Positions 1,699 through 45,526 of a DNA stretch of 45,526 nt are shown here, piece by piece. The DNA comes from an uncultured beta proteobacterium. GTDB lineage: Bacteria > Pseudomonadota > Gammaproteobacteria > Burkholderiales > Burkholderiaceae_C. Made by a program: the position numbers and the translations under genes. The stretch is taken from positions 1 through 45,526 of the forward strand of contig CAIRBF010000061.1 in assembly GCA_903876715.1 (NCBI GenBank). Direction: 5' to 3'. The notes under the pieces were generated by a model. The model was given only the letters and a program-made list of their open reading frames with translations. It did not search any database and was not told where the DNA came from. Numbering within the stretch: the first letter of the stretch is position 1; each line of letters starts with the position of its first letter.

Positions 1699-3171
1699 AT
1701 GCCCCTGCACACCCCCCTGCCCCCGGTTCCCGCGCTTTCCCCGCCCGAGATCCAGCGTGTCCTCGGCACCGTGCTCGGCGCCGCGGTGGGCGACGCGCTC
1801 GGGGCGCCCTTCGAGTTCGGCCCCGCGGGGGCGTGGTCGGCCCGCTTCGCCCGGCCCCTGCACGGCGCGCGCACCGAAATGGTGGGCGGCGGCCCCTTCG
1901 GCTGGGCCCCGGGCGAGTTCACCGACGACACGCAGATGGCGCTGGCCCTGGCGCTCGCGCTGCAGGCCGCCGGCGGCTACGACCCCGACGTGGTTTGGCA
2001 GCACTGGCGCGCCTGGGCCGGGGACGCGGCGGACGTCGGCCTCACCACGCGTCACGCGCTGGACTTCGCCGACTGGCGCGAGGTCGAGCACCCCGACCCC
2101 GAACGCACCGCCGCCAACGGCGCGCTGATGCGCGCCTTCGTGCTCGCCCCGGCGCTGCTGGCCCTGCCCCGCGAGCGCGCGCAGGCCGTGGTCCTGCATC
2201 AGGCCGCATTGACGCACCCGCACCCGGCCGCCGCCTGGGGCGCCTGGCTGGTGGTGGCGATGATTCGCAGCGCCATCCGCGGGGGCGACATGTTCCACGC
2301 GCTCGAGCACGAACTCGCGGCGCTGCCGCCGCTGCAGGCCGCGCCCTTCCGGCTGACGCTGCAGCCAGGCTGGCACCCCAGCCTGCCGCACCCGGGCAAC
2401 GGCAGCGTCTGGGGCTGCCTGGCGCAAGCGGTGTGGGCGGTGCGCTCGACGGCCCGCTACGCCGACGCCGTGCGCGCCGCGGTGGACCTGGGCGGCGACA
2501 CCGACACCGTGGCCTGCGTGGCCGGCGCCCTGGCGGGGGCACGGCACGGCGTGCAGGCCATCCCCTCGCGCTGGGTCACAGCAGTGCACGGCCGCCTGCG
2601 CGGGCCCGCAGGCGAGCATCGGTTCGACAACGCCGGCCTGCAGCACCTGGCGCTGCGCCTGGCCGGGCAGGAGCCCGTGGCCGAGCAGCCACCCGAGCCG
2701 GCTGCCGGCCCCGCCGAGGTGGCGCCCGGGCTGCACGCCGCCAACCTCGCCGGCGCCTCGGGTGCGCCCGCCGACTGGGCCGTGGTCTCGCTGTGCCGCA
2801 CAGGCACGCGCTTCGCCGGCCACGCAGTGCGGCGGCAGGTCTACATGGTCGACCAAGCCGGCGGCCACAACGAGGCCCTGGCCGAGGGCCTGCGCGACGT
2901 GCTCGACAGCGTCGACGCCTTCCTCGCCGAGGGCCGCCGCGTCGTCGTCCATTGCCACGGCGGCCGCAGCCGCACCGCGCTCGTGCTCAAGGCCTGGCGC
3001 ATGCGCCACACCCGCTGCACCGAGCGCGAGGCGCACGACTGGCTCAGCGCCCAGTGGCCGCTCGCGCAGCGGCTGAACGAGGACTTCACGCATATGCTGC
3101 GCCAAGGCGAAGGCGATGTCGGCGTTCAGGGGGGACCGGAGGCGGGACGCGCCGGTGCATTCCTGCCGTAG
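1699..3171 (+). CDS. ADP-ribosylglycohydrolase fused to a C-terminal dual-specificity/tyrosine phosphatase domain
   Basis: The protein has 490 residues in two domains. Residues 20-310 are an ADP-ribosylglycohydrolase (DraG/ARH family): a GAAVGDALGAPFEF entry, a TDDTQ motif at about 75-79 and a GGDTDT motif at 265-270, which together supply the acidic residues that hold the two magnesium ions. After a Pro/Ala-rich linker (about 310-345), residues 350-470 are a cysteine phosphatase. Its P-loop is HCHGGRSR, a CX5R signature with Cys419 and Arg425. The family removes ADP-ribose from proteins or small molecules; the phosphatase could act on a phosphorylated ADP-ribose product or on a protein, which is inference. 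The ATG follows a GAAGGA ribosome site. No signal peptide, so cytosolic. Confidence 0.85.
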   Translation: MPLHTPLPPVPALSPPEIQRVLGTVLGAAVGDALGAPFEFGPAGAWSARFARPLHGARTEMVGGGPFGWAPGEFTDDTQMALALALALQAAGGYDPDVVWQHWRAWAGDAADVGLTTRHALDFADWREVEHPDPERTAANGALMRAFVLAPALLALPRERAQAVVLHQAALTHPHPAAAWGAWLVVAMIRSAIRGGDMFHALEHELAALPPLQAAPFRLTLQPGWHPSLPHPGNGSVWGCLAQAVWAVRSTARYADAVRAAVDLGGDTDTVACVAGALAGARHGVQAIPSRWVTAVHGRLRGPAGEHRFDNAGLQHLALRLAGQEPVAEQPPEPAAGPAEVAPGLHAANLAGASGAPADWAVVSLCRTGTRFAGHAVRRQVYMVDQAGGHNEALAEGLRDVLDSVDAFLAEGRRVVVHCHGGRSRTALVLKAWRMRHTRCTEREAHDWLSAQWPLAQRLNEDFTHMLRQGEGDVGVQGGPEAGRAGAFLP

Positions 3172-3207
3172 CCGCCACGCGCGGACCGTGACTTGTGGGC
3201 CGCGGGT

Positions 3208-3259
3208 GATCTTTCCTCGGTGAGCCTGGCGGAATGAACTACCGCAAGCCGGAAAGATC
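3208..3259. repeat. 9-bp inverted repeat in the gap before the Bug/dioxygenase operon
   Basis: GATCTTTCC (3208-3216) and GGAAAGATC (3251-3259) are perfectly complementary across 34 nt. A TTGACA hexamer follows at 3280-3285, but no good -10 box lies 16-18 nt downstream of it. A regulatory role for the 3172-3385 gap is possible and unproven. Confidence 0.25.
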
Positions 3260-3385
3260 GGCCCTTGCGCAGCGCCCCCTTGACATTCAGAATCGGTGTC
3301 GGCTGGTGGCTCGCCGGCCCGGACTTCTCAGCACGGCAGCATCGATCGACATCGACGCGTCGGCACATCAAGAAAAGGGAATCCC

Positions 3386-4354
3386 ATGCCCTCCAGGAGA
3401 CAAGTCGTCGCCCGCCTCGGCGCTTCGGCCGCAGCGCTGGCCATGCCGGCGCTGCGCGCACAGGACGCCCGGCCCTTGCGCATCGTCATCCCCTTCGCCG
3501 CCGGCGGCAGCTCGGACGCCATGGCGCGGCTGCTGGCCACGCCATTGCAGGCCGAGCTCGGTCGTCCGGTGATCGTCGACCCGACGCCCGGCGGCAGCGG
3601 CCTACTCGCGGCGCGCAAGCTGCTCAACGCCCCGGCCGACGGCACGATGCTGCTGAACATCTCGCCCACGACGATGATCATCCTGCCGAAGACGACGAAG
3701 ATCGGCTTCGACCCGCACGAAGAATTCGTGCCCGTGACCAACATGGGTTCCAACCCGCTGGTGCTGGGCGTGCACCGATCGGTGCCCGTGACGACACTGG
3801 GCGAGTTCATCGACTGGGTGAAGGCGCGCCCGGCGAAATCCGTGAACTACGCCTCGGGCGGCACAGGCACCTCCACCCATCTGGTGGCCGAGCTGTTCTT
3901 CAGGCGTGCCGGGCTGCAACTGAACCACGTGCCCTACAAGGGCGGCGCGCCCGCGCTCCAGGACCTGCTCGCGGGCCATGTGTCGGCCTACTTCGGCAAC
4001 CCGGCGGAGTTCCTGGCGCACCTGGGCAGCGGCCACATCCGCGTGCTCGCCACCTCGGGCGAGAAGCGCCTGCCAGAGCTGCCCAACACCCCGGCGCTGA
4101 ACGAATCCATCCCCAACCTCTCGCTCGTCACCTGGAACGGCCTGGCCTTCCGCAAGGGCACGGCTCGGGAGGACGTCGAACGCGCGTCGCTGGCGGTGCA
4201 GAAAGTCTCGCGCCTGCCCGACTACATCGCCGGCATGCACAAGATCGGCATCTCGCCCATCGGCGACTCGCCCGCGCAGTTCGCGGCGACGATCCGGCGC
4301 GACCGCCTGCTGTGGGACGAAGCGATCGAATTGGCCGGCCTCAAGCCCGAGTGA
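3386..4354 (+). CDS. Bug/TctC-family periplasmic solute-binding protein
   Basis: The 322-residue product begins with a signal sequence (MPSRRQVVARLGASAAALA, cleavage expected near LRAQ). The double Arg at its start makes Tat export possible as well as Sec. The mature part opens with PLRIVIPFAAGGSSDAMAR, the classic Bug/TctC start, and later has NPLVLGV, YASGGTGTSTHL and HVPYKGGAPALQDL, all signatures of this fold, which usually binds a carboxylate. ATG 3386 is chosen for the AAAAGGGA site just upstream; an upstream ATG at 3296 would bury the signal peptide. No permease genes (TctA/TctB) follow, so it is one of the many orphan receptors of Burkholderiales. It leads an operon of catabolic genes whose substrate it probably captures. 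Confidence 0.9.
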   Translation: MPSRRQVVARLGASAAALAMPALRAQDARPLRIVIPFAAGGSSDAMARLLATPLQAELGRPVIVDPTPGGSGLLAARKLLNAPADGTMLLNISPTTMIILPKTTKIGFDPHEEFVPVTNMGSNPLVLGVHRSVPVTTLGEFIDWVKARPAKSVNYASGGTGTSTHLVAELFFRRAGLQLNHVPYKGGAPALQDLLAGHVSAYFGNPAEFLAHLGSGHIRVLATSGEKRLPELPNTPALNESIPNLSLVTWNGLAFRKGTAREDVERASLAVQKVSRLPDYIAGMHKIGISPIGDSPAQFAATIRRDRLLWDEAIELAGLKPE

Positions 4355-5418
4355 ACCTCGACCACACCCCCGGCCCGCTCGCCGACGGGCGTGCCGACTG
4401 GCGCCCGCCGGACGTGCGGGACGACCCGGCGCTCGAACACACGCTGTCGCCGGCGGAGGTCGCCACACTGGAGCGGACGCTCGCACGTTCGCTCGCCAGT
4501 GGCATCGCGCTGGACGACCTGGACGCGAGCCACTTCCCGCTGCCCGGCTTCGAGCCCTTGTTCGAGCGCCTGCGGCGCGAACTCGAGACCGGCCGCGGGA
4601 TGTTCCTGCTGCGGGGCTTCCCGGTGGATCGTCACTCCAAGGATGCGCTGCGCCACCTCTACGTGGGCTTCAGCCGCCACCTGGGGCCGACGCTGGCGCA
4701 GAGCCGCGGCGGCGACCACCTGGGTGACGTGCGCAACCTGAACGTCGATGTCAACAGCCCGCGCGGGCGCGCCTACACGAGCAAGCAGAAGCTCACTTTC
4801 CATGCCGACCAGGCCGACGTGGTGGGGCTGCTCGTGCTGCGCGTGGCCAAGGCCGGCGGCCTGAGCATGCTGGCCAGCGCGCTGGCCATCCGCAACGAGA
4901 TCGCGCGCACCCGGTCCGACCTGTTGCACGTCTTGCACCAGCCCATCGGCTGGAGCTGGCAGGAGCAGCAGCCCACGGGCGCGTCGGGCTGGTACAGCCA
5001 GCCCATCTACACCGAACGCGACGGGCGGTTCTCGAGCTGCTACATCCGCACCCACATCGTCTCGGCCCAGCGCTTCGAGGCCGTGCCGAGGCTGACGCCG
5101 CTGCAGATCGAGGCGATGGACCTGATCGACCGCCTCGCGCACAGCCCGGAGTTCCACATCGCGGCGATGTTCCAGCCCGGCGACCTGCAGTTCCTGAACA
5201 ACCACGTGATCCTGCACTCGCGCACCGCCTTCGAGGACCACGACGAGCCCGACCGGCAGCGCCACCTGCTGCGCATCTGGCTGGCGGTGCGCAACAGCCG
5301 CCCGCTGCACGAGAGCCGGCGCGCCTTCTACCGTGAGGTCGCGCCGGGCGCCTTGCGCGGCGGCTACACGGCACGCGACGGCCGCCGCGTGTACGAGACG
5401 ACCGCCGCGATGACCTGA
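4351..5418 (+). CDS. TauD/TfdA-family Fe(II)/2-oxoglutarate-type dioxygenase
   Basis: The start is a GTG that overlaps the previous stop (GTGA), giving 355 residues, and no alternative ATG lies close by. The double-stranded beta-helix core shows the iron facial triad: FHADQ places His151 and Asp153, and LHSRTAFED places the distal His289. RHLLRIWL gives the conserved Arg308 that usually holds the 2-oxoglutarate carboxylate. This branch resembles the taurine/2,4-D and gamma-butyrobetaine hydroxylases, whose members hydroxylate a carbon next to an acid, amine or ether. It is translationally coupled to the Bug receptor, which suggests it carries out the first oxidation of the imported compound (inference). 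Confidence 0.85.
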   Translation: MNLDHTPGPLADGRADWRPPDVRDDPALEHTLSPAEVATLERTLARSLASGIALDDLDASHFPLPGFEPLFERLRRELETGRGMFLLRGFPVDRHSKDALRHLYVGFSRHLGPTLAQSRGGDHLGDVRNLNVDVNSPRGRAYTSKQKLTFHADQADVVGLLVLRVAKAGGLSMLASALAIRNEIARTRSDLLHVLHQPIGWSWQEQQPTGASGWYSQPIYTERDGRFSSCYIRTHIVSAQRFEAVPRLTPLQIEAMDLIDRLAHSPEFHIAAMFQPGDLQFLNNHVILHSRTAFEDHDEPDRQRHLLRIWLAVRNSRPLHESRRAFYREVAPGALRGGYTARDGRRVYETTAAMT

Positions 5419-5441
5419 GCGCCCGAGGACGACCGCTGCCG

Positions 5442-5876
5442 ATGAAAGTGAACCGCGTCGCGCACATCGCCGTCGCCGCCGAGCGGCTGGAGGCGGTCCA
5501 GGCCGTCTTCGGCGACCTGCTGGGCCTGCCGGTGCTGAAGGAGGACCGGTTCGCCTCGGGCACCCGCATGGCGATGTACGAAGCCGGCAACCTGCACGTC
5601 GAGGTGTTGCACAACGCCGCGCCCGACTCGCTGCCCGGGGCCTTCGTGCAGGCGCGGGGCAGCGGCTTCTTCCACATCTGCCTGGAGGTCGACGACTTGG
5701 CCGAAGCCCTGGCTGAACTCGCCGCCAAGGGGGTGCGCATCCACCCCCGGTCGCCGCGGCACGGCGCCGCCGGCCACCCCGTGGCCTTCCTGGACCCCGA
5801 CACCACCGGGGGCTTGCTGCTCGAACTGGCCCAGTCCCCGCACCCCGATGGACAACACCCTGCACACCCCGCCTGA
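5442..5876 (+). CDS. VOC-superfamily protein (glyoxalase I / methylmalonyl-CoA epimerase-like)
   Basis: 144 residues with two beta-alpha-beta-beta-beta modules. The metal ligands expected of the superfamily are visible: the early His in VAHIAV, the Glu in HVEVL, the His in FFHICLEVDD and the final Glu in LLLEL. The HIAVAAERLEAV opening and GVRIHPRSPRHGAAG loop most resemble methylmalonyl-CoA epimerases, but no CoA gene is nearby, so an epimerase, isomerase or ring-opening lyase of the pathway is equally possible. It starts 23 nt after the dioxygenase and its last 29 nt overlap the next gene. Confidence 0.75.
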   Translation: MKVNRVAHIAVAAERLEAVQAVFGDLLGLPVLKEDRFASGTRMAMYEAGNLHVEVLHNAAPDSLPGAFVQARGSGFFHICLEVDDLAEALAELAAKGVRIHPRSPRHGAAGHPVAFLDPDTTGGLLLELAQSPHPDGQHPAHPA

Positions 5877-6627
5877 AGAACGCCCCGTGCTGTTGCTGGT
5901 CGGCGCCGGCCTGGGCATCGGACGCGCCATCGCCCGGCGCGCCACGGCGCGCGGCTTCGCGCTCGCGGCCTGCGACATCGACGTCGGCGCGCTGGATGCG
6001 CTGCGGCCCGAGCTGGCCCCGGACGCCTTGCTCGGCCAGGCTGACATCGTCGACGCCGGCAGCGTCCAGGGCTTCGTTCACGCCGCGCTGGAGCGCTTCG
6101 GCCGCATCGACGCCGTGATCAGCAATGCCGGCGGCATGATCTCGCTCGTGCACGAGGGCGCGGTGGCGGCCAACATCCGGCCCTTCCGCGACATCCCGGC
6201 GAAGGACTGGAAGCCTATCATCGACCTGAACCTGTACGGGCCGCTGAACGTGGCGCACGCCGTGCTGCCAGCGATGCTGGAGCGAGGCCGCGGGCGCATC
6301 GTGTTCATCTCCTCCGTGTCGGGGCTGACCGGCGGCGCCGGCCTGAGCGTGTACGCGGCCGCCAAGGGCGCCGTCCATGCCTTCGCCAAGTCGCTGGCGC
6401 GCGAGGTGACGGCCGCGGGCGTCTCGGTGAACTGCGTCGCCCCGGGCGCGGTGGCCACGCGCGCCTTTCCGGAGGGCTCACCCTCGATCGAGCGCCGCCT
6501 GCGCAGCGTGTCGATCGGCCGCCTGGGCCAGCCCGAGGAGATCGCCGAGGTGGCGGTCTACGTGGCGGTGGACGCGCCGCCCTACCTGAGCGGGGAGATC
6601 ATCTCCGTCTCGGGCGGCCCGCCGTGA
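5848..6627 (+). CDS. SDR-family NAD(P)-dependent oxidoreductase
   Basis: A 259-residue classical short-chain dehydrogenase. The cofactor motif GAGLGIG is at residues 19-25, an Asp follows strand 2 (CDID, about 43-45), which favours NAD(H). NAG is at 93-95 and the catalytic triad is Ser156, Tyr169 and Lys173 (VYAAAK). The end LSGEIISVSGGPP is the usual SDR tail. It overlaps the VOC gene by 29 nt and the next dehydrogenase by 4 nt (GTGA), so translation is coupled. It probably oxidises an alcohol made by the dioxygenase step; the substrate itself cannot be read from the sequence. Confidence 0.88.
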   Translation: MDNTLHTPPEERPVLLLVGAGLGIGRAIARRATARGFALAACDIDVGALDALRPELAPDALLGQADIVDAGSVQGFVHAALERFGRIDAVISNAGGMISLVHEGAVAANIRPFRDIPAKDWKPIIDLNLYGPLNVAHAVLPAMLERGRGRIVFISSVSGLTGGAGLSVYAAAKGAVHAFAKSLAREVTAAGVSVNCVAPGAVATRAFPEGSPSIERRLRSVSIGRLGQPEEIAEVAVYVAVDAPPYLSGEIISVSGGPP

Positions 6628-7643
6628 CGGGGCAGCCCGGCACGGACGCGGTGGGCCACGCGGACGCCGGCGCGGTGAAAGCCCGTCTTAGCGTCGCGGC
6701 AGCGTCGCCGTCGTTCTGCGAGCACCCGGCCCTGTGCGCCGAGCTGCGCGCGCTGTTCCCGCAGGCGCGCTTGAACACCTCGTTGCGACGCCTGCACGGT
6801 GACGAGCTGGTCGAATTTCTGCAAGGCAGCGACGTGGCCATCGTCGGCCTGGAGGCGATGACCGCCTCGGTCATCGCCAGGCTGCCCGAGTTGAAGATCA
6901 TCGCCAAGCTCGGCACCGGCGTGGACATGCTCGACGGCGCGGCCATGGCCGCGCGCGGCATCCGCCTGGGCTGGAAGCCCGGCGCCAACGCGCTGTCCAT
7001 CGCCGAGCTGGTGATCGCGTTCGCGCTCGTGGCGCTGCGCAACATGGGCATCACCAACCTCGCGCTGCGCCAGCGCGGCGACCTCACGCGACGCATGGGG
7101 CGGTTGCTGAGCGGCCGGGTCTTCGGCCTGCACGGCTGCGGGCACATCGGCCAGCACGTGGTGCGCCTGCTCGCCCCCTTCGGCTGCCAGGTGCTGGCCT
7201 GTGACATCGCCGACCGCGCCGACTTCTACGCCGCCCACGGCGTGCAGGCGGTGGGCTTCGACGAACTGCTCGGGCGGTCGGAGGTGCTGTCGCTGCACAT
7301 CCCGCTCACCCCGGCCACCCGCGGCCTGTACGACCGCCAGGTGCTGGCCCGCCTGCGGCCGGACTGCGTGCTGATCAACACCGCGCGCGGCGAGCTCGTC
7401 GACGAGGCTGCCCTGCACGAGCGCCTGAGCGCGGGCGCGCTGGCCGGCGCCTGCGCCGACGTCTTCGCCAGTGAACCGGCCTTCGACTCGCCGCTGATCG
7501 CCCTGCCCAACTTCTTCGGCACGCCCCACATCGGCGGCAGCGCCGCCGAGGCCCGCCTGGCCATGGGGCGGATCGCGCTGCAGGGCATCTTCGACAACTT
7601 CGTGCCCACCCCGGGCCTGCCGCCTTTCGATGAACCAGCCTGA
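6624..7643 (+). CDS. D-isomer-specific 2-hydroxyacid dehydrogenase
   Basis: A 339-residue protein of the phosphoglycerate/hydroxypyruvate dehydrogenase family, started at GTG 6624 overlapping the SDR stop. The nucleotide-binding motif GCGHIGQHV is in the middle of the chain. The catalytic Arg is in INTARGELVDEAAL, the Glu in DVFASEP and the His in TPHIGGSAAEA, in the order and spacing of the family. The acid after strand 2 (CDIAD) suggests NAD. It interconverts a 2-oxo acid and a D-2-hydroxy acid and presumably handles a late intermediate of this operon. The first 25 or so residues are low-complexity, so the true start could be slightly downstream. Confidence 0.88.
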   Translation: MTGQPGTDAVGHADAGAVKARLSVAAASPSFCEHPALCAELRALFPQARLNTSLRRLHGDELVEFLQGSDVAIVGLEAMTASVIARLPELKIIAKLGTGVDMLDGAAMAARGIRLGWKPGANALSIAELVIAFALVALRNMGITNLALRQRGDLTRRMGRLLSGRVFGLHGCGHIGQHVVRLLAPFGCQVLACDIADRADFYAAHGVQAVGFDELLGRSEVLSLHIPLTPATRGLYDRQVLARLRPDCVLINTARGELVDEAALHERLSAGALAGACADVFASEPAFDSPLIALPNFFGTPHIGGSAAEARLAMGRIALQGIFDNFVPTPGLPPFDEPA

Positions 7644-8385
7644 AGCCATGCCCGCAAGGGCCCACTACGGCCACCGCGCCCGCCTCGGCCTGATCGTGCC
7701 GCCGAACAACACCGTCACCGAATCCGAATGGGCCGATGCCATGCCTGCCGGCGTGACCGTACACGCGCTGCGCTTCCGGCTCAACCCGCTGGCCCGCAGC
7801 CCGGCAGAGCTTGACCTGCTGCGCGCCGGTCTGCGCGATGCGTGCGCACTGCTGGCCGAGGCCGAGATCCATGCGCTGGCCTTCGCCTGCACCGCGCCCT
7901 CGGCGGTGAGTCCGCGCGCCGACATGGAGGGACTGATGTCGCAAGCCGGCGGCGGCCTGCCGGCCGCCACGGCGGCCGCGGCCGTGGTGGACGCACTGAA
8001 CGCGTTGTCGGCCCGGCGCGTGGTGCTCGTCTCCCCGTTCTCTGCCGCGGTCACGCAGCATGAAGCTGACTTCCTGGCCCGGGAGGGGCTGCAGGTGTTG
8101 GCGCAGCACTCGCTGGGCCACGGCACCTGGCAACCCGGGGTCAAGCTGGCCATCCACCGCATTCCCCCAACCCAGGTGTGCGAAGCCGTGCTGGCCCTGG
8201 ACCACCATGAGGCCGACGCCATCGTGCTTTCAGGCACCAGCCTGGTCACCTTCCCGGTGCTGCAGGAACTCGAGGCACGCGCCGGCAAGCCCGTGGTCGG
8301 CAGCAACCAGGCGCTCCTGTGGTCCACCTTGCGCAAGGCCGACGTGCACGACGCGCTGGAGCTCGGGCGGCTGTTCGCCCTCTGA
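7630..8385 (+). CDS. Asp/Glu racemase-superfamily protein (maleate isomerase / arylmalonate decarboxylase-like)
   Basis: A 251-residue protein overlapping the dehydrogenase by 14 nt; the ATG at 7648 is an alternative start. It opens with RARLGLIVPPNNTVTESEW, the phosphate- or carboxylate-binding loop of maleate isomerases. The first catalytic Cys is Cys87 in FACTAPSAV. The position of the second Cys is filled by LSGTSLVTF (residues 200-208), with no Cys. Maleate isomerase and most racemases use two Cys, whereas arylmalonate decarboxylase uses one (on the other half). A one-base isomerase or decarboxylase is therefore likelier than a true racemase. Its place at the end of the operon fits a C-C or cis-trans step on a dicarboxylate. 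Confidence 0.75.
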   Translation: MNQPEAMPARAHYGHRARLGLIVPPNNTVTESEWADAMPAGVTVHALRFRLNPLARSPAELDLLRAGLRDACALLAEAEIHALAFACTAPSAVSPRADMEGLMSQAGGGLPAATAAAAVVDALNALSARRVVLVSPFSAAVTQHEADFLAREGLQVLAQHSLGHGTWQPGVKLAIHRIPPTQVCEAVLALDHHEADAIVLSGTSLVTFPVLQELEARAGKPVVGSNQALLWSTLRKADVHDALELGRLFAL

Positions 8386-8403
8386 CAGCCTGTCGAGGCT
8401 GTC
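8384..8403. terminator. candidate hairpin at convergent gene ends
   Basis: GACAGCCT and AGGCTGTC pair around a GTCG loop, overlapping the racemase stop codon and lying between two convergent operons. There is no T tract, so it may work with Rho or only stabilise the 3' end. Confidence 0.4.
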
Positions 8404-8475
8404 GACCAGTTTGGCTTCAGTGTTGGCGTTGGGGGGGCGCCCTCGGTGCAACACGTCGGCCGCGCCCCATCGGGA

Positions 8476-9465
8476 CTATTCGGCCTTGATCTGCGCCGCC
8501 TTGACGACTTTTTCGTACTGAGCCAGATCACTGCGCAAGACGGTCGCGTAATCAGCCGGCGAAAGTGACCCAGGCGTTGCGCCCTGCCCCAGCATGGCAT
8601 TACGCAAGTCGGGGGCGGCCAGGATGTCGCGAAGTTCACGGTTCAGCCGTTCGATGACAGGAGCTGGCGTCCGAGACGGTGCAAAAAGGGAAATGCTGGT
8701 GGTGATGTTGAAGCCCTTCAATTCGGGCGAGTCGGAAACCAGCGGTACATCAGGCAACGCAGTGATGCGCTTGTCGCCGGTCACGCCCAGCGCCTTGAGC
8801 CGACCTGCCGTGATATGGGGCAGAGCAGTCGAGGGAACCGACAGCGTCATGTTGACCTGACCGGAGATGAGGTCCGTCACCAACTGCGGCGTGGCCTTGT
8901 AGGGAACATGCAGCAGCTCGATACCGGCCTGCATGGACAGCTGCTCCATCGCCACGTGCGTGAGATTGCCGATGCCGGGGCTGCCGTAATTGAGCTGGCG
9001 CGGACGGGACTTCGCATAACGGATCAGCTCGGACACGCTGTTCACGGGCAGCGCGGCGCTCGTGACCAGCACGTAGGGCGTCGTGTTGATCACCCCGATG
9101 GGCGTGAAATCCTTGAGCCCGTCGTACTTGACGGTGTCGGGCGTGACCAACGGCGTGAGCGTCAGCGATGTGTCGGGAGCCACCATCAGCGTGTAGCCGT
9201 CGGGCGCCGATCTGGCCGCCTTGGTCGTACCGATGACACCCGAGGCGCCAGGCAGGTTCTCGATCACGATGGACTGTCCCAGGCGCTCGGCCAAGCGGGT
9301 CGACACTTGCCGAGCAGCGTTGTCGACCGCAGCGCCAGCCGCGAAGGGAACAATGATCGTGATCGGCTTGCCCTGCGGCCAAGCTGCCGACGGCTGCGCT
9401 GCCGCCAGCGGGGCGATGGCGCAGCAACTGATGACGGCAAGGAGACTCTTGAAGTTCAGCGACAT
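8476..9465 (-). CDS. Bug/TctC-family periplasmic solute-binding protein
   Basis: 329 residues, with a Sec signal (MSLNFKSLLAVISCCAIAPL, cleavage after AAA or AQP). The mature domain carries KPITIIVPFAAGAAVDNAAR, GASGVIGTTKAARS, LNYGSPGIGN and LLHVPYKATPQLVTDL, the family landmarks. ATG 9465 is preferred over the GTG at 9474 because AAGGAG lies eight bases before it, whereas it would abut the GTG. The Bug fold normally has an aspartate in the AGGxxD loop, kept here as Asp in AAVDNAA. It is the last of three minus-strand genes, 35 nt after the nucleoside phosphorylase, an unusual partner for this receptor family. Confidence 0.9.
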   Translation of the reverse strand: MSLNFKSLLAVISCCAIAPLAAAQPSAAWPQGKPITIIVPFAAGAAVDNAARQVSTRLAERLGQSIVIENLPGASGVIGTTKAARSAPDGYTLMVAPDTSLTLTPLVTPDTVKYDGLKDFTPIGVINTTPYVLVTSAALPVNSVSELIRYAKSRPRQLNYGSPGIGNLTHVAMEQLSMQAGIELLHVPYKATPQLVTDLISGQVNMTLSVPSTALPHITAGRLKALGVTGDKRITALPDVPLVSDSPELKGFNITTSISLFAPSRTPAPVIERLNRELRDILAAPDLRNAMLGQGATPGSLSPADYATVLRSDLAQYEKVVKAAQIKAE

Positions 9466-9500
9466 GGCAGGCACTCCTTAGGGTGATCGCAGGGGGTTCT

Positions 9501-10406
9501 TCAGCTCTTGGTTACCGCCGGAACGGGCTGCACAGCCCCCGTTTCCACCGGCGCGTCATCGAGGCTGCAGTGCGTGAGCCAGCCCGGGCGCGTGCCGTGA
9601 AAGCCACTGCGCAATGCCTTGCCGCACGAGCAGGACCGCGCCTGCGGCAACAACTGGACAGCGGCAATCAACGCCTGCTCGATCCGATCGTGCAGTCCGT
9701 TGGCGTAATAGTTGTCGTTCATGCTGCCCGGACCGACATGGAGCACCGCAGGTGCCATCCCCGCACCGTAGTTGATCACGGGCGCAATGGAGGCAAAGCA
9801 CATCTCTGCCTCACGCGCCAAAACGACCTCGGGCACCAGCGGTGTACCGACAATATCGGCGCCATCACGCTGCAAGGAGCGAATCTCGGCAGGCGTCTCG
9901 AAACGCGGGCCTTCGGTGCACGCAAACACACCGCGTTTGATGACATGGTCCGGCAGAGAGGATGTCGCCTCCAGCAAAGCGAGGCGCACCTCGTGACAGA
10001 AGGGCTCGGTCATGTCGACGCGAACCCAGCACTCTTCCTCGTCGAACAGCGAATGCGACCGGCTCTTGGTCCGGTCGAGAACGTCATGCGAGATGACAAT
10101 ATCGCCCGGCTGGATCGAGGGGTTGACCGAGCCGATCGCGTTCTGCGAGATCACGCGCTCGACGCCAAGCATGCGCAAGGCCCAGATGTTGGCCCGGTGA
10201 TTGATCTTGTGGCTGGGCGTCACGAGTTTGGGGCCATAGCGCAGCACAACTGCCGCGTCGCGACCGCCGATGCGGCCCACGAGCACACCGGCCGTCCCCC
10301 AGGGCGTCTTGACTTTCTCTTCGCGGCGATCGGTCAGCAGCCGCTCGGACGCCGCACTGGAGATCAGGCCGACGGGTGCCTGCGAAGGGGACGTGCTTGA
10401 GCTCAA
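9501..10406 (-). CDS. MTA/MTI phosphorylase-type purine nucleoside phosphorylase
   Basis: 301 residues, started at a TTG (10406) with GAGG eight bases upstream; no ATG fits. The motif block SHKINHRANIWALRMLGV, followed by NAIGSVNPSIQPGDIVI and DRTKSR, is diagnostic of the methylthioadenosine phosphorylase branch. TEGPRFETPAEIR and GTPLVPEVVLAREAEMCFA supply the purine and ribose sites. GTPLVPE replaces the GMTxxPE of the usual family. A CSC motif near the C-terminus (RSCSCGKAL) recalls the CXC pair of thermostable and pseudomonad enzymes. The upstream deaminase would deliver methylthioinosine, so this is probably a methylthioinosine phosphorylase making hypoxanthine and methylthioribose-1-phosphate, as known in Pseudomonas aeruginosa. 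Specificity is inference. Confidence 0.82.
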   Translation of the reverse strand: MSSSTSPSQAPVGLISSAASERLLTDRREEKVKTPWGTAGVLVGRIGGRDAAVVLRYGPKLVTPSHKINHRANIWALRMLGVERVISQNAIGSVNPSIQPGDIVISHDVLDRTKSRSHSLFDEEECWVRVDMTEPFCHEVRLALLEATSSLPDHVIKRGVFACTEGPRFETPAEIRSLQRDGADIVGTPLVPEVVLAREAEMCFASIAPVINYGAGMAPAVLHVGPGSMNDNYYANGLHDRIEQALIAAVQLLPQARSCSCGKALRSGFHGTRPGWLTHCSLDDAPVETGAVQPVPAVTKS

Positions 10407-39410: not shown

Positions 39411-40598
39411 CTACGAGGCTCGATACCTCTCCACGCTTGTCTCGTCGACTTCGACCCCGATGCCAGGTCGGTCGGTGACGACGAAATCACCGTTCTCCCA
39501 GATCAGTGGCTGCTTGACGATCTCGTTGAAGAATCCACTCGACGTGCCTATGCTTTCCTGGATCAGGAAGTTGGGGATGCTGGCGTCGATCTGAAGTGCC
39601 GCGGCCGTGATGATGGGTCCGCCCCAAACATGCGGTGCCATGAGGACGTAGTTCGCTTCGGCAAGGGCGGCGATCTTTTTGACTGCCGTGATACCGCCCG
39701 CGCTACCCAGATCGGGCTGAGCGACCGCGCAGGCCTTCTCGGCGAAGATCTGCTGGAATTCGTGCACGGTAACCAGCCGCTCGCCGGTGGCAATAGGTAT
39801 GCGCGTCGAGCGAGCGACCTTGCCCATCTCGCTGTAGTTCTCCGGCGGACAGGGCTCTTCCAGCCAGAGCGGGTCATGTTTCTCCAGCCTCGCCGCCAGC
39901 CGGATCGCCGCGGCGGGCGTGATCTGACCATGCGTGCCGATCAGGATGTCCGCCCGCTCACCCACTGCGGCTCGGATGGCGGCCACTGCTCGATCCGCGT
40001 GCCCCAGTTCAGCCTGTGACAAGTCCCAGGGCCTGAAGGTACGCTGTGCACTCTTGTTCTGGATGAGGGGGTCGAACTTCAGGCCAGTGAAACCCTGGTC
40101 GACCAGTTGGAGCGCGATCTCTGCCAGGCGCTCCGGCTCCTGGGTCCACATCCTCACCGTTTCCTGCGGACCCTGATGGCCGTGCGGGTCGTAGATGTAG
40201 GTGTAGCTGCGGATCCGCTCGCGAACCCGGCCTCCGAGCAGGTTGTACACCGGCGTCTTGTAGTGCTTTCCGGCGATGTCCCAAAGCGCCGTGTCAAAGG
40301 CACTGATGACGCCGAGCATGACGTAGTCCGGATGCTGGTAGGTCAGCCCCGAATACAGCTTGCTGAAGAGGTGTTCCCGGTCCAGGGCATCCTCTCCTTC
40401 GAGATAGGTGGAGAAGATGTTCTTGACGAGTTCCAGGTACGCGCCACTCAAGCCGTTCAGCGTGCTGAGTATGGCCGTCTCACCCCAGCCCTCGAGCCCG
40501 GTGTCGGTCTCCAGCTTGATGAAGTACCAATGGCGCCCCCCCTTGTGCGGCGGCGGTGTTGCGACGACGAAGGGTCTGACGTTGGTGAGTCTTGGCAT
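39411..40598 (-). CDS. enolase-superfamily (mandelate racemase/sugar-acid dehydratase) protein
   Basis: 395 residues from ATG 40598 (GGAG upstream). N-terminal capping domain: NVRPFVVATPPPHKGGRHWY. The barrel carries the metal Asp/Glu steps: GLKFDPLIQ, GTHGQITPAAAIRLA, WLEEPCPPEN, TGERLVTVHEF and the QPDLGSAGGI strand, then PHVWGGP. The pattern with a KFDP and HGQ strand is that of galactonate/gluconate-type dehydratases. It should dehydrate a sugar acid to a 2-keto-3-deoxy acid. Downstream in the same direction as the GMC operon. Confidence 0.85.
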   Translation of the reverse strand: MPRLTNVRPFVVATPPPHKGGRHWYFIKLETDTGLEGWGETAILSTLNGLSGAYLELVKNIFSTYLEGEDALDREHLFSKLYSGLTYQHPDYVMLGVISAFDTALWDIAGKHYKTPVYNLLGGRVRERIRSYTYIYDPHGHQGPQETVRMWTQEPERLAEIALQLVDQGFTGLKFDPLIQNKSAQRTFRPWDLSQAELGHADRAVAAIRAAVGERADILIGTHGQITPAAAIRLAARLEKHDPLWLEEPCPPENYSEMGKVARSTRIPIATGERLVTVHEFQQIFAEKACAVAQPDLGSAGGITAVKKIAALAEANYVLMAPHVWGGPIITAAALQIDASIPNFLIQESIGTSSGFFNEIVKQPLIWENGDFVVTDRPGIGVEVDETSVERYRAS

Positions 40599-40711
40599 GG
40601 TGTCGGCTCCGGGTTGCCGCTGTTGAGGTGTTGGAAGCTCAGGTCGTTGGAGGCGACGATCCCGGGGGGTTCCTGGAGTCACACCGCGCCGCGCAGTTCG
40701 ACTCATTCCGG

Positions 40712-41149
40712 CTAGAAGGCAGGACGTGCCCTGACCGGGTCGAGCAAGGTCCAATCCCCCTGCTCCAGTTCGAAGCCCCTGGGAAACGGCGGCCTGGCTT
40801 CCATACCGAGGGCCCGCATCACGCGCGGGTCCCCGTAGTAGCCTTGTGCCGTCAGCATCTGCAATGTGCGAGCAGCCTCGGGAAAGCGCTGCCGGAACGC
40901 CGCGCAAGCTTGGTGAGGATCATCGCGCGCCAGGCCTGCGAACCCACGCAGCGCCGAGGACAACTCTGCGGCCTGTTTAGACGCCGCATCGAGGATCACA
41001 CGCAGGATGGCCGGGTCCGCCGCCGACGGAAGCCCGCGCCGGGGACTTGCGGGAATGATGCACGCGACGAGGGCCACCAGCGCCCAGGACTCTTCGAGCG
41101 TGAAGTCACCCGCCACGTCGGCAGGAGGCCAAGGACCGGACGTCGCCAT
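40712..41149 (-). CDS. gluconate 2-dehydrogenase subunit 3-like protein
   Basis: 145 residues from ATG 41149; a TTG at 41161, overlapping the GMC stop, is an alternative. The segment VALVACIIPASPRRGLPSAADPAI and the C-terminal QGYYGDPRVMRALGMEARPP resemble the small subunit that accompanies GMC flavoproteins. Classical subunit 3 has a Tat signal for the complex; none is seen here. It probably stabilises or exports the GMC enzyme. Confidence 0.65.
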   Translation of the reverse strand: MATSGPWPPADVAGDFTLEESWALVALVACIIPASPRRGLPSAADPAILRVILDAASKQAAELSSALRGFAGLARDDPHQACAAFRQRFPEAARTLQMLTAQGYYGDPRVMRALGMEARPPFPRGFELEQGDWTLLDPVRARPAF

Positions 41150-41153
41150 GGTG

Positions 41154-42758
41154 TCAGTCAAAGAGGTTGGCCAGCCGCGTCTTGATCTGGTCTGCGATGT
41201 ACAGCGCAGTGGCCTGCAGGGTGCTGGTGGGGTTCACGCCCCCCCCGGTCACGAAGACGCTGCCATCGACGATGAACAAGTTTTTCACGTCGTGAGCGCG
41301 TCCCCACTCGTTGACTACCGACCGAGAGGCGTCCAGACCCATTCGCGCGGTGCCCAGCAAGTGCCAACCAGCAAACGGTACTGGCGCGGTCGTGAACACG
41401 TCCGTCGCTCCGGCCGCCCGCAGGACCTCGATGCCGCGCGCCACGGCGTGATCGAGCATCCTCGCGCTGTTCTCGCTCAAGGTGTAGCTGATGCGCGGCG
41501 CCGGGATGCCATCCGAATCGGTCAGGGTCGGATCCAGCGTGACGCGGTTGCGCTCTTCCGGCAAGTCTTCGCACACTGCGGCCAGGCTGGTGACCCGGTT
41601 GAACAAGGCGTGGAACTTGTCGTGGTGTCCTTCACCCCACGGGAGCAAGCCCTTCTCGAAGCCGGTCGTGGCGGTCGCAACCGGCCCCATGCCGCGCGAG
41701 GTCTCGAAGCTGTAACCGCGAACGAATCCTCGGGCACGGTCGGTCCGGTAGAACTGGTGGCTCTGGATGCACTTGTGCGGGCCCTTGTAGCCGTCCAACG
41801 GTTCATCGAAGACGCCCTGGATCGCCGCATACGGATGCAACATCAGGTTCTTGCCTACGAGCCCCGTGCTGTTGGCGAGCCCCTCGGGACACGCGGCCGA
41901 TTTCGAATTCAACAGCAGGCGCGGCGTCCCGACACCATTGGCCGCGACGATCACCACGTGGGCGCCCAGCGCATGCTCCTGCCCCTTGGCATCGGAGTAC
42001 ACCACTCCCGAGGCCATGCCCTCGCGGTCGACCGTGATCTCGCGGACGCGGCAACCGGTGCGCAGTTCGACCCCCCGGCGCAAGGCCTGCGGCCAGTAGG
42101 TGACATCCACACTGCCCTTGGCGCCTTGCGCGCAGCCGCTGACGCAGGCGCCCAGGTTGATGCACCGGGCCCGCCCTTCGTGATCCTGCGAGGCGATCGC
42201 CATATCGGAGGGCCACCAATGCCAGCCCAGCCGATTGAAGCCTCTGGCCAAGGCTGCACCAGCCCGTCCGAGCGGCAGGGGCGGCATGAGCGGCGTCTTG
42301 TCCTTGGGGTAGGCAGGATCTCCGGCGAGACCGGCCACGCCCATGATCCGGTCGTTCTCTGAGAAATACGGCTCGAGTGTGGTGTAGGAAATGGGCCAAT
42401 CGTCCGCCACGCCGTCGAGAGATCGCACCTGGAAGTCGGAAGGGTGCATGCGCGGGAAGTGCGCCGCGTAGAGAACCGTGCTGCCGCCGACCCCGTTGTA
42501 GTTCGCGATCTTGATGGGCGAATCGTCATCGTTGACCGGGTAGTCTTCCCGCCGCTTGCGGTGGTTCGGGCTGATGTTGAAGTCACCCGCGCGGCGCGCC
42601 TCCCAGTCCATTCCGGTCGCCGGGAACTTCATCGGGTCCACGGCCATACCTTGTTCGAGGCAGACGATCCTCATCCTGGTTTCGGCCAGGCTCCAGGCCA
42701 CGGCGGCCCCCGACGCACCGGCTCCGATGATCAAGACGTCGACGGTTGGCGCTGGCAT
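41154..42758 (-). CDS. GMC-family FAD oxidoreductase (gluconate 2-dehydrogenase large subunit-like)
   Basis: 534 residues from ATG 42758. FAD motif GAGASGAAVAWSL with Gly12, Gly14 and Gly17; a second GMC stretch YNGVGGSTVLYAAHFPRM; a Cys-rich loop CINLGACVSGCAQGAKGS, as in dehydrogenase members with a cluster or disulfide; catalytic His in AGWHLLGTARMG and the Asn in GGGVNPTSTLQAT. These enzymes oxidise a sugar or sugar-acid hydroxyl and pass electrons to a cytochrome c, absent from the window. A candidate promoter with an operator precedes it. Confidence 0.88.
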   Translation of the reverse strand: MPAPTVDVLIIGAGASGAAVAWSLAETRMRIVCLEQGMAVDPMKFPATGMDWEARRAGDFNISPNHRKRREDYPVNDDDSPIKIANYNGVGGSTVLYAAHFPRMHPSDFQVRSLDGVADDWPISYTTLEPYFSENDRIMGVAGLAGDPAYPKDKTPLMPPLPLGRAGAALARGFNRLGWHWWPSDMAIASQDHEGRARCINLGACVSGCAQGAKGSVDVTYWPQALRRGVELRTGCRVREITVDREGMASGVVYSDAKGQEHALGAHVVIVAANGVGTPRLLLNSKSAACPEGLANSTGLVGKNLMLHPYAAIQGVFDEPLDGYKGPHKCIQSHQFYRTDRARGFVRGYSFETSRGMGPVATATTGFEKGLLPWGEGHHDKFHALFNRVTSLAAVCEDLPEERNRVTLDPTLTDSDGIPAPRISYTLSENSARMLDHAVARGIEVLRAAGATDVFTTAPVPFAGWHLLGTARMGLDASRSVVNEWGRAHDVKNLFIVDGSVFVTGGGVNPTSTLQATALYIADQIKTRLANLFD

Positions 42759-42862
42759 TCGGCCGGAGTCCTCGCGTTGGCTTGAAGATACTGCGCAACA
42801 TCGCGCAGCCGCGCGAACCACGCCACGACCGCAGCCCGTCGTGGGTAGCCGCGCGGCCCCGC

Positions 42863-42891
42863 AGTCTAGAGCAACAGACCATTTACATCAA
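42863..42891 (-). promoter_or_regulatory. candidate sigma-70 promoter for the GMC operon
   Basis: On the minus strand: -35 TTGATG (42891-42886), 17-nt spacer, -10 TAGACT (42868-42863). The -35 half overlaps the 15-bp palindrome at 42887-42901. Confidence 0.5.
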
Positions 42892-42901
42892 TATGATTGA
42901 T
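42887..42901. promoter_or_regulatory. operator 1, candidate MarR site
   Basis: ATCAATATGATTGAT: arms ATCAAT and ATTGAT around ATG. It lies between the divergent GMC and MarR genes. Its twin at 43614 differs at only three bases. Confidence 0.65.
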
Positions 42902-43014
42902 AAACATTCGAAGACCGTCATGGTGGCCCATCGATGGGGCGGTGGCCTGCCGGCCCATCACCGAGGTCGCAGCACATCGACTGCGACACATCTCGCAACA
43001 TGGAGGGATCAAGC

Positions 43015-43587
43015 ATGAAAGGGTCGTCGGATCTGCGGGCCGCAGACGAGTACCTGTTCGAAGACAAGGCCTGGTTCCAGGGTGACGGCCCGGACGCCGC
43101 GATCGGCGACGCCACCCTGTTCCAGACCACGGAACTGCTGTTCCTGGTGCACCTGTGCACCGCCGAAGACACGGCGATACAACTGAAGAAGCACGGCCTC
43201 GGAAGGATCCATCACCGGCTGCTCTACGTGGCTGTCAAGAAGCCCGGCTGCTCGGTGGCAGAGGTGCTCTCGTTCCTTCGGGTGACGAACCAGAACATTC
43301 ACAAGGCGCTCACGGATCTGGTGCGGCTGGAACTCGTCGAGCAACGCCGGTCGCCCTCGGACCAGCGCAGACGGGAACTTCACGCCACGCCGAAAGGAAA
43401 CGCTGTCTTCGAGGACCTGATGCGCATGCAGTATGAGCGCTTCGATCGCGTCTACCGCACCTGCGGCAAGTTCGCAGTGCGCGACTTCTGGCGGGTCCTG
43501 TGGTGCATGCTCGACGAGAGCGATCGCGGTTGGCTGCTGCAGAAGAAGCGCCATCCGACGCCAGACCCCACCGATACCGGCACATGA
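43015..43587 (+). CDS. MarR-family transcriptional regulator
   Basis: 190 residues from ATG 43015, which has GGAGGG eight bases upstream; ATG 43000 is an in-frame alternative without a site. The winged helix is at about residues 85-135: VAEVLSFLRVTNQNIHKALTD for the recognition helix and RRSPSDQRRRELHATPKG for the wing. The N-terminal 40 residues are an extra arm. MarR proteins bind palindromes as dimers and release on ligand binding. Two matching sites (42887 and 43614) flank this gene, which suggests autoregulation and control of both neighbours. Confidence 0.88.
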   Translation: MKGSSDLRAADEYLFEDKAWFQGDGPDAAIGDATLFQTTELLFLVHLCTAEDTAIQLKKHGLGRIHHRLLYVAVKKPGCSVAEVLSFLRVTNQNIHKALTDLVRLELVEQRRSPSDQRRRELHATPKGNAVFEDLMRMQYERFDRVYRTCGKFAVRDFWRVLWCMLDESDRGWLLQKKRHPTPDPTDTGT

Positions 43588-43613
43588 TCCATTCGCGCCC
43601 CAACCTCATTCAT

Positions 43614-43628
43614 ATCAATAGTATTGAC
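43614..43628. promoter_or_regulatory. operator 2, candidate MarR site
   Basis: ATCAATAGTATTGAC: core TCAATA, G, TATTGA. Shares the consensus ATCAATAnnATTGAy with operator 1. It overlaps the -35 hexamer that drives the TRAP genes. Confidence 0.65.
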
Positions 43629-43652
43629 AATTTTTCAGGTCAGGCGCATGAT
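43624..43652 (+). promoter_or_regulatory. candidate sigma-70 promoter for the TRAP operon
   Basis: -35 TTGACA (perfect, 43624-43629), 17-nt spacer, -10 CATGAT (43647-43652, four of six). The start of the receptor gene is about 170 nt downstream. Confidence 0.55.
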
Positions 43653-43819
43653 CTTCTCGTAGTCACGGGTCGGCCGCCGGGGTCCCCATCAGAGCCGGCT
43701 GATGACCGAACAGCGCGATCGCAGGGCTGGGCGGCGTGACTCAGGAAAGGTTGCGGGGCGTGAGATGCCCTTCGAGCCTTGTTGTGTCCGCCAGTTGCCA
43801 GAACATCGAGAGGAGCATC

Positions 43820-44821
43820 ATGAACTTCAAAGCACTGTCCGTCCTGACCGCTGCATTGATGTCTGCGGGCCCCGCCCTTGCCGCCGAGGTGACCGAACTC
43901 CAATATGCAACCGTTGCGCCTGAGAGAACGCCCTGGGGCGCGCACTTTCTGAACCGCAAGCAGGCGGCTGAAACAGCGGCGAAGGGGTCGCTGAAGATCG
44001 ACATGTTCTTCAGTTCCCAACTCGGCGACGAACCCACGGTGGTGCGCCAGTTGATTCGCGGCCGGATCGATATCGCAGGGCAGTCCAACACCGCCACTTC
44101 ACTGATCGTCCCCGAGTTTTCCCTGCTGGCAGCGCCATTTCTGTTCAAGGACGCGGCGCAATCGGACTGCGTCTTCGATAACCACGTCAAGCCCATCTTC
44201 GGTCCCTTGCTGGAAGCCAAGGGCGTGGTGCTGCTTTCCTACATGGAAGTCGGTTTCCCAGCGCTCTACTCCAAGACCCCGATCAGGACGGTCGCGGATA
44301 TCAAGGGGATGAAGATCCGCGTGGCGCCCAGCGCGCCTTACCCGCTGTACTTCAACGAGGCCGGCGCCATCGCCGTTCCACTCGCAGGATCGGACACGGT
44401 GCCCGCGATGCAGACGGGGCAGGTGAATGCGATCCACAACTCGACGGTGTTCGGCCTATCGGTCGGCTACCAGAAGATCGGCCCCCACGTCACCTATCTG
44501 CCGTCTCATCACGACATCGGCACCGTCGTGATGAGCAAGAGAAGCTGGGACAGGCTGACGCGGGAGCAGAAGGACTCCATGCTCGAGATGGGCAAGGAGG
44601 TCAACGCCTTGCGCAAGAGCATCCGTGACACCCAGGAGGCGCTGCTGAAGGGAGCGGCGGGCAAGGACGGCGTCATGGTCTACCGACCCGAGGGCGCAGA
44701 ACTGGCCGAGTTCCGTGCCCGCGGCGCCAAGGCGCAGGAAGAGCTGGTCAAGTCGATCGGCCCGAGTGCCGTGCCGATCTGGGCCAGGATCCAGGCCGCC
44801 GTGAAAGCCTGTGGCGGCTGA
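43820..44821 (+). CDS. TRAP transporter substrate-binding protein, DctP type
   Basis: 333 residues from ATG 43820 (AGGAG upstream; the upstream open frame is not translated). Signal peptide MNFKALSVLTAALMSAGPAL, cut after ALA. The fold reads TELQYATVAPERTPWGAHFL, LIRGRIDIAGQSNTA, and the ligand Arg in KGMKIRVAPS. It binds an acid, probably the sugar acid oxidised by the GMC operon (inference). Confidence 0.9.
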   Translation: MNFKALSVLTAALMSAGPALAAEVTELQYATVAPERTPWGAHFLNRKQAAETAAKGSLKIDMFFSSQLGDEPTVVRQLIRGRIDIAGQSNTATSLIVPEFSLLAAPFLFKDAAQSDCVFDNHVKPIFGPLLEAKGVVLLSYMEVGFPALYSKTPIRTVADIKGMKIRVAPSAPYPLYFNEAGAIAVPLAGSDTVPAMQTGQVNAIHNSTVFGLSVGYQKIGPHVTYLPSHHDIGTVVMSKRSWDRLTREQKDSMLEMGKEVNALRKSIRDTQEALLKGAAGKDGVMVYRPEGAELAEFRARGAKAQEELVKSIGPSAVPIWARIQAAVKACGG

Positions 44822-44845
44822 TCGCGCTGCCCAGCGAGTCCTCCC

Positions 44846-45334
44846 GTGCTCAGGCTGGTCTCATGGTTGAACCGGGTGGAGGCGGCGCTTGCCGCCATCG
44901 CTTACCTGATCGTGACCGGCCTGCTGATCGCCAGCATGGCGTCGCGCGAATTCTTCTCCAAGTCACTGGGAAGCGCTGAGACCCTGGCCGTCTTCGCCGC
45001 CGTATACGCCTCCTTCTTCGGCATGGTCCTGGCCACGGCCGCGAATGCCCATCTGCGACCGCAATTCGCAGACAAGTGGCTCCCCGCGGCCTGGCACCAC
45101 CAGGTGGCCAGGCTGGGCGATGGGGTCTCCGCCCTGCTCTTCTGCGGCATCGGCCTCGTGGCCACGCTCTATTTGTCGGACACATTTGCCAACAAGGACC
45201 TCGCACCCATCATCTATTGGCCGCTGTGGACGATACAGATCGTCATCCCGTACGCGTTCTTCTCGTGCGCGTTGCGCCATCTGGTGTTCGCGATCAGCCC
45301 CCAAACCAAGCCCGAGCCCACGATATCGGAATAG
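44846..45334 (+). CDS. TRAP transporter small permease, DctQ type
   Basis: 162 residues, GTG start at 44846. Four hydrophobic segments (about 13-33, 44-66, 88-110 and 125-147) with the family phrase SREFFSKSLGSAETL. It forms the Q subunit of the transporter with the M protein that follows. Confidence 0.85.
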   Translation: MLRLVSWLNRVEAALAAIAYLIVTGLLIASMASREFFSKSLGSAETLAVFAAVYASFFGMVLATAANAHLRPQFADKWLPAAWHHQVARLGDGVSALLFCGIGLVATLYLSDTFANKDLAPIIYWPLWTIQIVIPYAFFSCALRHLVFAISPQTKPEPTISE

Positions 45335-45337
45335 ACC

Positions 45338-45526
45338 ATGACAGCGCTCGGGCTTCTGGCACTCGTCCTGCTGCTGCTGGTGCTTCGGCAGAGCGTCATC
45401 CTCATCCTCATCGTCAGCGCTGCATACGTCCACCTGTTCTGGGGCCGGGCGGACCTCACCTACCTGATCGATGACATCTGGACCGCGGTCAACCGGGAGT
45501 CGCTGCTGGCGATCCCGATGTTCATC
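45338..45526 (+). CDS. TRAP transporter large permease, DctM type (3' end outside window)
   Basis: Only the first 63 residues are present, starting at ATG 45338, three bases after the dctQ stop. MTALGLLALVLLLLVLRQS is the first membrane helix and ESLLAIPMFI the beginning of the next conserved motif of DctM. Assignment rests on position and this short stretch. Confidence 0.82.
   Translation, partial: MTALGLLALVLLLLVLRQSVILILIVSAAYVHLFWGRADLTYLIDDIWTAVNRESLLAIPMFI

Follow-up and report, generated by a model that had tools for sequence, protein, structure and literature searches.

Towards its end, the 45,526-nucleotide stretch of DNA analysed here (hereafter the window) carries a gene for a MarR-family regulator with an oxidation operon on one side, an uptake operon on the other and a short palindrome in each of the two intervening gaps. 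This arrangement raises the question of whether the palindromes are operators of the regulator, and whether one protein controls both operons. The first-pass annotation had placed palindromes at 42887 and 43614 with the MarR gene between them; both are present there, and the gene (43015-43587, plus strand) does lie between the two sites.

Genes, sites and predicted promoters

The 190-aa regulator matches Pfam PF12802 (MarR_2) at 42.7 bits, against a cut-off of 27, and scores just under the cut-off for PF01047 (23.1 against 24.6 bits). It passes no NCBIfam equivalog cut-off: assignment as BilQ (NF045593, its best NCBIfam match) was rejected at 40.5 bits against a cut-off of 125, as was assignment as LdtR (NF047395) at 16 bits against 250. 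An AlphaFold2 model, of low confidence (mean pLDDT 55), agrees with the MarR fold in its helix order and two wing strands and no further than that. As far as can be read from the sequence, the regulator also has inverted repeats at its own and the neighbouring predicted promoters, as is the case for the MarR family.

Three genes for enzymes or their partners lie on the minus strand. The first encodes a 534-aa GMC oxidoreductase (41154..42758) that scores above its Pfam cut-off and whose closest solved structures are the large subunits of FAD glucose and fructose dehydrogenases (E 4.5e-53). It is adjoined by the gene for a small partner protein of 149 aa (40712..41161), probably of the gluconate-dehydrogenase-subunit-3 type. 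This partner has no Pfam or NCBIfam match of its own, and an orthologue from a related cassette (L021, described below; 48% identical) matches PF13618 (Gluconate_2-dh3) at E 0.0068, below the cut-off. Large-subunit homology and an adjoining small partner gene are features of the FAD glucose/fructose dehydrogenase complexes; a cytochrome subunit gene and a signal peptide, by contrast, were not noticed by eye. The third gene (39411..40607) encodes a 398-aa enolase-superfamily (MR_MLE) sugar-acid dehydratase-like protein, again above its Pfam cut-off. It passes no NCBIfam equivalog cut-off, and assignment as D-galactonate dehydratase was rejected (251 bits against the equivalog cut-off of 311 for NF010624).

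The plus strand beyond the regulator encodes a TRAP transporter, comprising the 333-aa solute-binding protein DctP (43820..44821), the small permease DctQ (44846..45334) and the start of the large permease DctM (45338..45526, frame read by eye), inside which the window ends. DctP and DctQ are both above their Pfam cut-offs, and the complete DctM of a related cassette (L020) matches TIGR00786 dctM. Many solved TRAP receptors match DctP at similar scores, so that its substrate is not fixed by these matches. The spacing of the three genes suggests that they share one transcript.

Operator 1 has the core ATCAATATGATTGAT (42887-42901) within the 21-bp frame TACATCAATATGATTGATAAA (42884..42904) and is located between the GMC and MarR genes; the six positions of its core arms are all paired (6/6) around a 3-nt centre. 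Operator 2 has the core ATCAATAGTATTGAC (43614-43628) within the 21-bp frame CATATCAATAGTATTGACAAT (43611..43631), is located between the MarR and DctP genes and has 5/6 core positions paired. With up to three mismatches on both strands, the palindrome pattern has 8 matches in the window, against a shuffle mean of 1.91 (0/100 shuffles reach 8). For operator 1 of the window, none of 1000 shuffles contains a match as good, and RTCAAYNNNRTTGAY occurs within the window at the two operators only.

Predicted promoters overlap both sites. The TRAP promoter (43624..43652, plus strand) consists of TTGACA (43624-43629), a 17-nt spacer and CATGAT (43647-43652), and its -35 hexamer falls inside the 21-bp frame of operator 2. 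The GMC-operon promoter (42863..42891, minus strand) consists of TTGATG (42891-42886), a 17-nt spacer and TAGACT (42868-42863), with the -35 hexamer inside the frame of operator 1. With 4/6 matches in each hexamer (8/12 overall), the GMC promoter of the window is the weaker of the two. A consensus promoter scan of 42700-43900 found the TRAP promoter as its sole site (1 found, 0.4 expected); the GMC promoter is under the threshold of that scan and so is not listed by it. For marR, a plus-strand promoter starting from site 1 (TTGATA) would have to rely in the window on CATGGT, a poor -10 (3/6) after a 16-nt spacer.

Conservation across four cassettes

The cassette is present in four genomes: the window's own, a Rubrivivax metagenome-assembled genome (MAG; locus L020), a Hyphomicrobiales MAG (L021) and genome G1502 (L095). 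L020 and L021 were found by a scan of genome contigs, and L095 came from a 385-genome sample of the class to which the L021 genome belongs (that of G429). At least the L020 and L021 genomes are metagenome bins, and these four genomes are the only ones from which the cassette is known. The MarR proteins are 87% (L020), 63% (L021) and 55% (L095, by tblastn) identical to that of the window, and in a tree of the first 23 MarRs collected the four form one clade (100/100). Each cassette has the GMC and small partner genes in one direction and MarR, DctP and DctQ in the opposite direction. DctM is seen where the DNA extends far enough, namely in L020, in L095 and, with its first part, in the window. 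As third enzyme the window and L020 have an MR_MLE dehydratase, and L021 and L095 an LDH2-type dehydrogenase. This LDH2-type hydroxyacid dehydrogenase is encoded at 606-1673 in L021 and at 10336-11406 in L095; L095 has extra genes for a PhyH-like dioxygenase after LDH2 and for an FAD-linked oxidase after DctM.

Conservation beside orthologous genes had been named beforehand as the observation whose absence would speak against the sites, and both sites are kept in 4/4 cassettes. RTCAAYNNNRTTGAY occurs exactly twice per cassette, once in each gap, in all four, and nowhere else in the 45.5, 12.6, 6.4 and 15.0 kb concerned. When the eight gaps of these four loci are dinucleotide-shuffled, between 1 and 21 of 20,000 shuffles contain a match; for gap 1 of L021, the count is 10/20,000 once approximately 50 nt of GMC coding sequence are removed. 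Among the sixteen half-sites, TCAA is present at positions 5-8 in 16/16 and T at position 9 in 14/16. The 21-bp form TATRTCAAY-N3-RTTGAYATA is matched by both sites of L021 and both sites of L095 without a mismatch, and operator 1 of the window and L020 differs from it at 2/18 places. The 15-bp palindrome of the first-pass annotation is present, but its extent was understated: in L021 and L095 the site covers 21 bp, with 9-bp arms.

The promoters are conserved along with the sites. TTGACA with a 17-nt spacer is present in the TRAP promoters of 4/4 cassettes, with the -10 hexamers CATGAT, CATGAT, CAGGAT and CAGAGT (4, 4, 3 and 3 of 6 positions). The GMC promoter hexamers (TTGATG-17-TAGACT) are identical in the window and L020; the other two cassettes have TTGACA as the GMC -35, with spacers to the best -10 of 18 nt (L021) and 17 nt (L095). 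The earlier description of each palindrome overlapping a -35 element with a 17-nt spacer thus holds for the TRAP promoter in all four cassettes and for the GMC promoter in 3/4, the exception being L021, whose better -10 follows an 18-nt spacer. The right arm of operator 1 continues, in both L021 and L095, into TGATATAAT, a candidate extended -10 that could serve marR.

An alignment of gap 1 between the window and L020 has 169/256 identical columns overall and 19/20 in the block with most of the site, and the gap 1 site is a conserved island between these two sequences. Gap 2 has 183/233 identical columns, with 19/20 in the site block and 20/20 in a leader block; here the operator is not the sole conserved block, as part of the mRNA leader is equally conserved between the window and L020. 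The TRAP mRNA leader (approximately 160 nt) contains a 65-nt hairpin at 43728-43792 of the window, which is nearly unchanged at 6715-6778 of L020. The two leader hairpins fold alike (z -2.35 and -2.00), the leader of L095 differs from that of the window and L020 by eye, and a search of 42700-43900 against Rfam gave no match up to E 1. The hairpin may, at most, add a further level of control.

An orthologous MarR was found in 0/36 genomes of the same genus (best weak match E 4.3e-6), in 0/398 other genomes sampled from the family (three of which have distant relatives, best E 3.1e-29 to 1.3e-27) and, with a threshold of E 1e-20, in none of 368 further genomes from a sample of the class. Because the orthologue is so scarce across the sampled genus, family and class genomes, the cassette is both rare and patchily distributed. 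A comparison of window positions 39411-45526 with L020 positions 2406-9586 shows the cassettes to be 79-91% identical gene by gene; the 500-nt stretch past the dehydratase gene is unrelated (42%). This identity next to an unrelated flank, together with the absence of the MarR orthologue from the 36 same-genus genomes, points to a module that moves as one unit and looks to have been exchanged horizontally.

The site in the wider MarR branch and in whole genomes

To follow the site beyond the cassettes, the 21-bp form was sought at each MarR gene in a segment that began 330 nt upstream of the matched part and ended 30 nt within it, and the best match was judged against 1000 dinucleotide shuffles. 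The form is found upstream of 31/39 examined MarR genes of the branch, each at no more than 16/1000 shuffles, a count that covers the two best same-genus matches outside the window's genome and 6 of 39 plasmid records. Without the four cassettes, which were the source of the 21-bp form, the independent part of this result is 27/35. In the first set, made up of 23 hand-picked genes, 17 are at 16/1000 shuffles or fewer and the other six at 75 to 863; by group, the site is present in 4/4 cassettes, 5/5 genes of a sister group (approximately 44% identity), 1/4 of the window's family and 7/10 petP-like genes. The second set of 16 genes (11 leftover matched genes, the same-genus best matches L005 and L006, and the plasmid loci L023, L024 and L027) has 14/16 at 4/1000 shuffles or fewer, the exceptions being L023 (455) and L024 (1000). 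Altogether the 21-bp form is absent upstream of eight of the 39 genes (L073, L074b, L075, L076, L097, L098, L023 and L024). At least four sites (L022, L025, L078 and L079) overlap the start codon in ATGGCTG, and coding constraint may help to preserve sites in this position.

The genes that carry the site have different surroundings. Sister genes adjoin a Liv-type binding protein, an AMP-ligase and a thiolase; Pfam assigns every one of them in L096 and the thiolase in L070, and the rest were named by eye. The ten petP-like MarRs form a clade of their own in the tree of the first 23 (100/100). Their proteins have approximately 30-40% identity and their neighbours differ from those of the cassette; most have a response-regulator-like sequence downstream (by eye; annotated for L027). 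The half-site TATGTCAAY, of the same type as in the window, is nevertheless located upstream of 7/10 of them, with a second half that is mostly CTGACATA and with the motif overlapping the start codon in some. Two petP-like MarR genes without a site near the start have paired TCAGTA/TCAATA-type palindromes, 18 nt apart, approximately 800 nt upstream (L097 8668-8700 and L098 6357-6389).

The site is thus co-inherited with the MarR branch. The strongest argument for MarR as the protein that recognises this site is that the site follows this family of regulators into different surroundings, which ties the predicted operator to the regulator and not solely to the promoter. It is fairly likely that the whole branch, spread over different pathways and proteobacteria, reads a single operator code of the form given above.

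The window's genome (5,582,208 bases in 505 contigs, 98.24% complete) was also searched as a whole. ATCAATANNATTGAY at up to one mismatch gives both operators and one other place, C208:8566. RTCAATNNNATTGAY at up to one mismatch occurs at 9 places, of which only the two operators are exact. Five of the seven others are within open frames (some of which may not be genes), and one, C240:20188, overlaps the beginning of such a frame. The last, C227:14848, was rejected as a MarR site: it is one end of a different perfect palindrome, TTGACGTTAACGTCAA. With six of the seven near-matches falling inside an open frame or at its start, and the seventh belonging to another palindrome, the two operators appear, by this pattern, to make up the entire regulon in this genome. 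In the window's genome and in G428 (L102, approximately 2849-2874, and L084), TTGACGTTAACGTCAA stands upstream of a gene that was named acyl-CoA-mutase-like by eye, and it is presumably a LiuR-type motif; G428 has six other match places, and the TTGACGTTAACGTCAA place is the one among them that was examined.

The pattern is commoner in the L021 genome, where, at up to one mismatch, it matches 11 times in the forward and 8 times in the reverse orientation (control: 1 and 0). These correspond to 16 places, 2 of which are those of the cassette. Seven of the 14 others were examined: five, including one of a pair on C172, are inside open frames and two are intergenic (C91:11870 and the second of the C172 pair), and none of the seven stretches has a MarR match by tblastn. 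The L021 palindromes examined were rejected as sites of this regulator and taken as chance or as belonging to other regulators.

Regulatory interpretation

We consider it quite probable that the window encodes a small catabolic cassette under an autoregulated MarR-type repressor that is released by a ligand at both operons. A MarR dimer would bind the two 21-bp operators, of which operator 2 would cover the -35 of the TRAP-uptake promoter and operator 1 the -35 of the GMC-operon promoter, upstream of MarR itself. The bound repressor would exclude RNA polymerase from these promoters, and a ligand derived from the substrate would free it, such that uptake and oxidation would rise together. The ligand is probably a sugar acid or other alpha-hydroxy acid imported by the TRAP transporter, or its oxidation product. 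The analysis itself establishes the sites, their placement over predicted -35 elements and their co-inheritance with this MarR branch, whereas MarR binding, repression, autoregulation and the class of ligand are inferred; for autoregulation, the position of operator 1 is what suggests it, the marR promoter of the window being not clear.

The overlap with the predicted -35 elements also favours repression over activation. A regulator that binds both sites as an activator, or that represses one operon and activates the other, is an unlikely reading: LdtR, of the MarR family, is described as an activator in the available text of PMC3999280, but its sites there are upstream of the -35, whereas the dyads of the window span the TRAP and GMC -35 hexamers, where a bound dimer should block RNA polymerase. 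We give a slightly lower probability still to the sites belonging to another transcription factor, with the MarR gene between them by coincidence. MarR binding to the sites is a prediction, and the abundance of the pattern in the L021 genome leaves room for other proteins that may use similar palindromes there. Against this, the site follows the MarR branch elsewhere (5/5 in the sister group, 7/10 among petP-like genes, 1/4 in the window's family and 14/16 further genes), and in the one such case seen, a GMC homologue (45-46%) with no MarR or TRAP match within 14 kb has no adjoining site.

It is highly improbable that there is no operator at all, and that the palindromes reflect either chance or back-to-back -35 boxes under promoter selection. 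TTGAY on both strands is indeed already -35-like, as this explanation would have it. The left arm of operator 2, ATATCAAT, is however kept in 4/4 cassettes even though a leftward promoter is unneeded there, in L021 and L095 the arms extend over 9 bp, and the gap shuffles match in no more than 21 of 20,000 cases.

An autoregulated, ligand-released repressor would be in keeping with what has been described for this family. In the portions of PMC4992311 available, MarR regulators are mostly repressors acting on inverted repeats between divergent genes, and a MarR repressor with an inverted-repeat operator over divergent promoters is a standard arrangement; repression by promoter occlusion is described in the available part of PMC5797941. 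YvmB/PchR of Bacillus subtilis (PMC4992311) and AesR of Corynebacterium glutamicum (PMC13413800) are, on the available text of both papers, like the window in having a MarR protein and an inverted-repeat operator located over promoter elements and serving the regulator's own gene and a divergent operon. The operator of AesR overlaps promoter elements of both operons, and its repeat 1 has a 6-N3-6 layout, as in the window (PMC13413800, same portions). Compared with these two systems as there described, the window has other operator letters and a second operator beyond the regulator gene, before the TRAP operon.

CouR of Rhodococcus jostii, another MarR-family protein, has the operator cATTGAnnnnnTCAATg (as quoted in the available part of PMC13277315), with ATTGA/TCAAT half-sites as here; by comparison of the operator letters, the arms are reversed (ATTGA-N5-TCAAT against TCAAT-N3-ATTGA). 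LdtR of Liberibacter and Sinorhizobium binds its own and a neighbouring promoter, as is proposed for the regulator of the window, and, unlike the latter, is an activator with a split T-rich site upstream of the -35 (PMC3999280, available text). In the open-licence literature we found no account of a MarR locus with TRAP and GMC or gluconate dehydrogenase genes, and titles and the starts of abstracts gave no MarR/TRAP divergent-repressor locus of this type. Among the petP/petR/MarR matches listed none was relevant by title, and among the matches listed an operator of this sequence was not described for the MarR branch. The operator letters do occur in a primer in PMC5797941.

What is new here is not the circuit, which is of a well-known kind, but an operator common to a branch of MarR regulators. 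The 21-bp site is a testable candidate operator that follows this branch across Rubrivivax-like and Hyphomicrobiales genomes, and it predicts which operons are under the control of this regulator. The locus itself offers a compact sensor cassette, with a regulator, two promoters, uptake and oxidation, that lends itself to a screen for the inducer. More broadly, the site would be of use in regulon prediction for the MarR branch. If the branch does read one shared operator code, pathways as different as TRAP uptake with GMC oxidation, Liv-type uptake with CoA ligation and thiolysis, and the petP-like regulators with their response regulator would be joined by it, and the regulons of the branch would be predictable from sequence alone.
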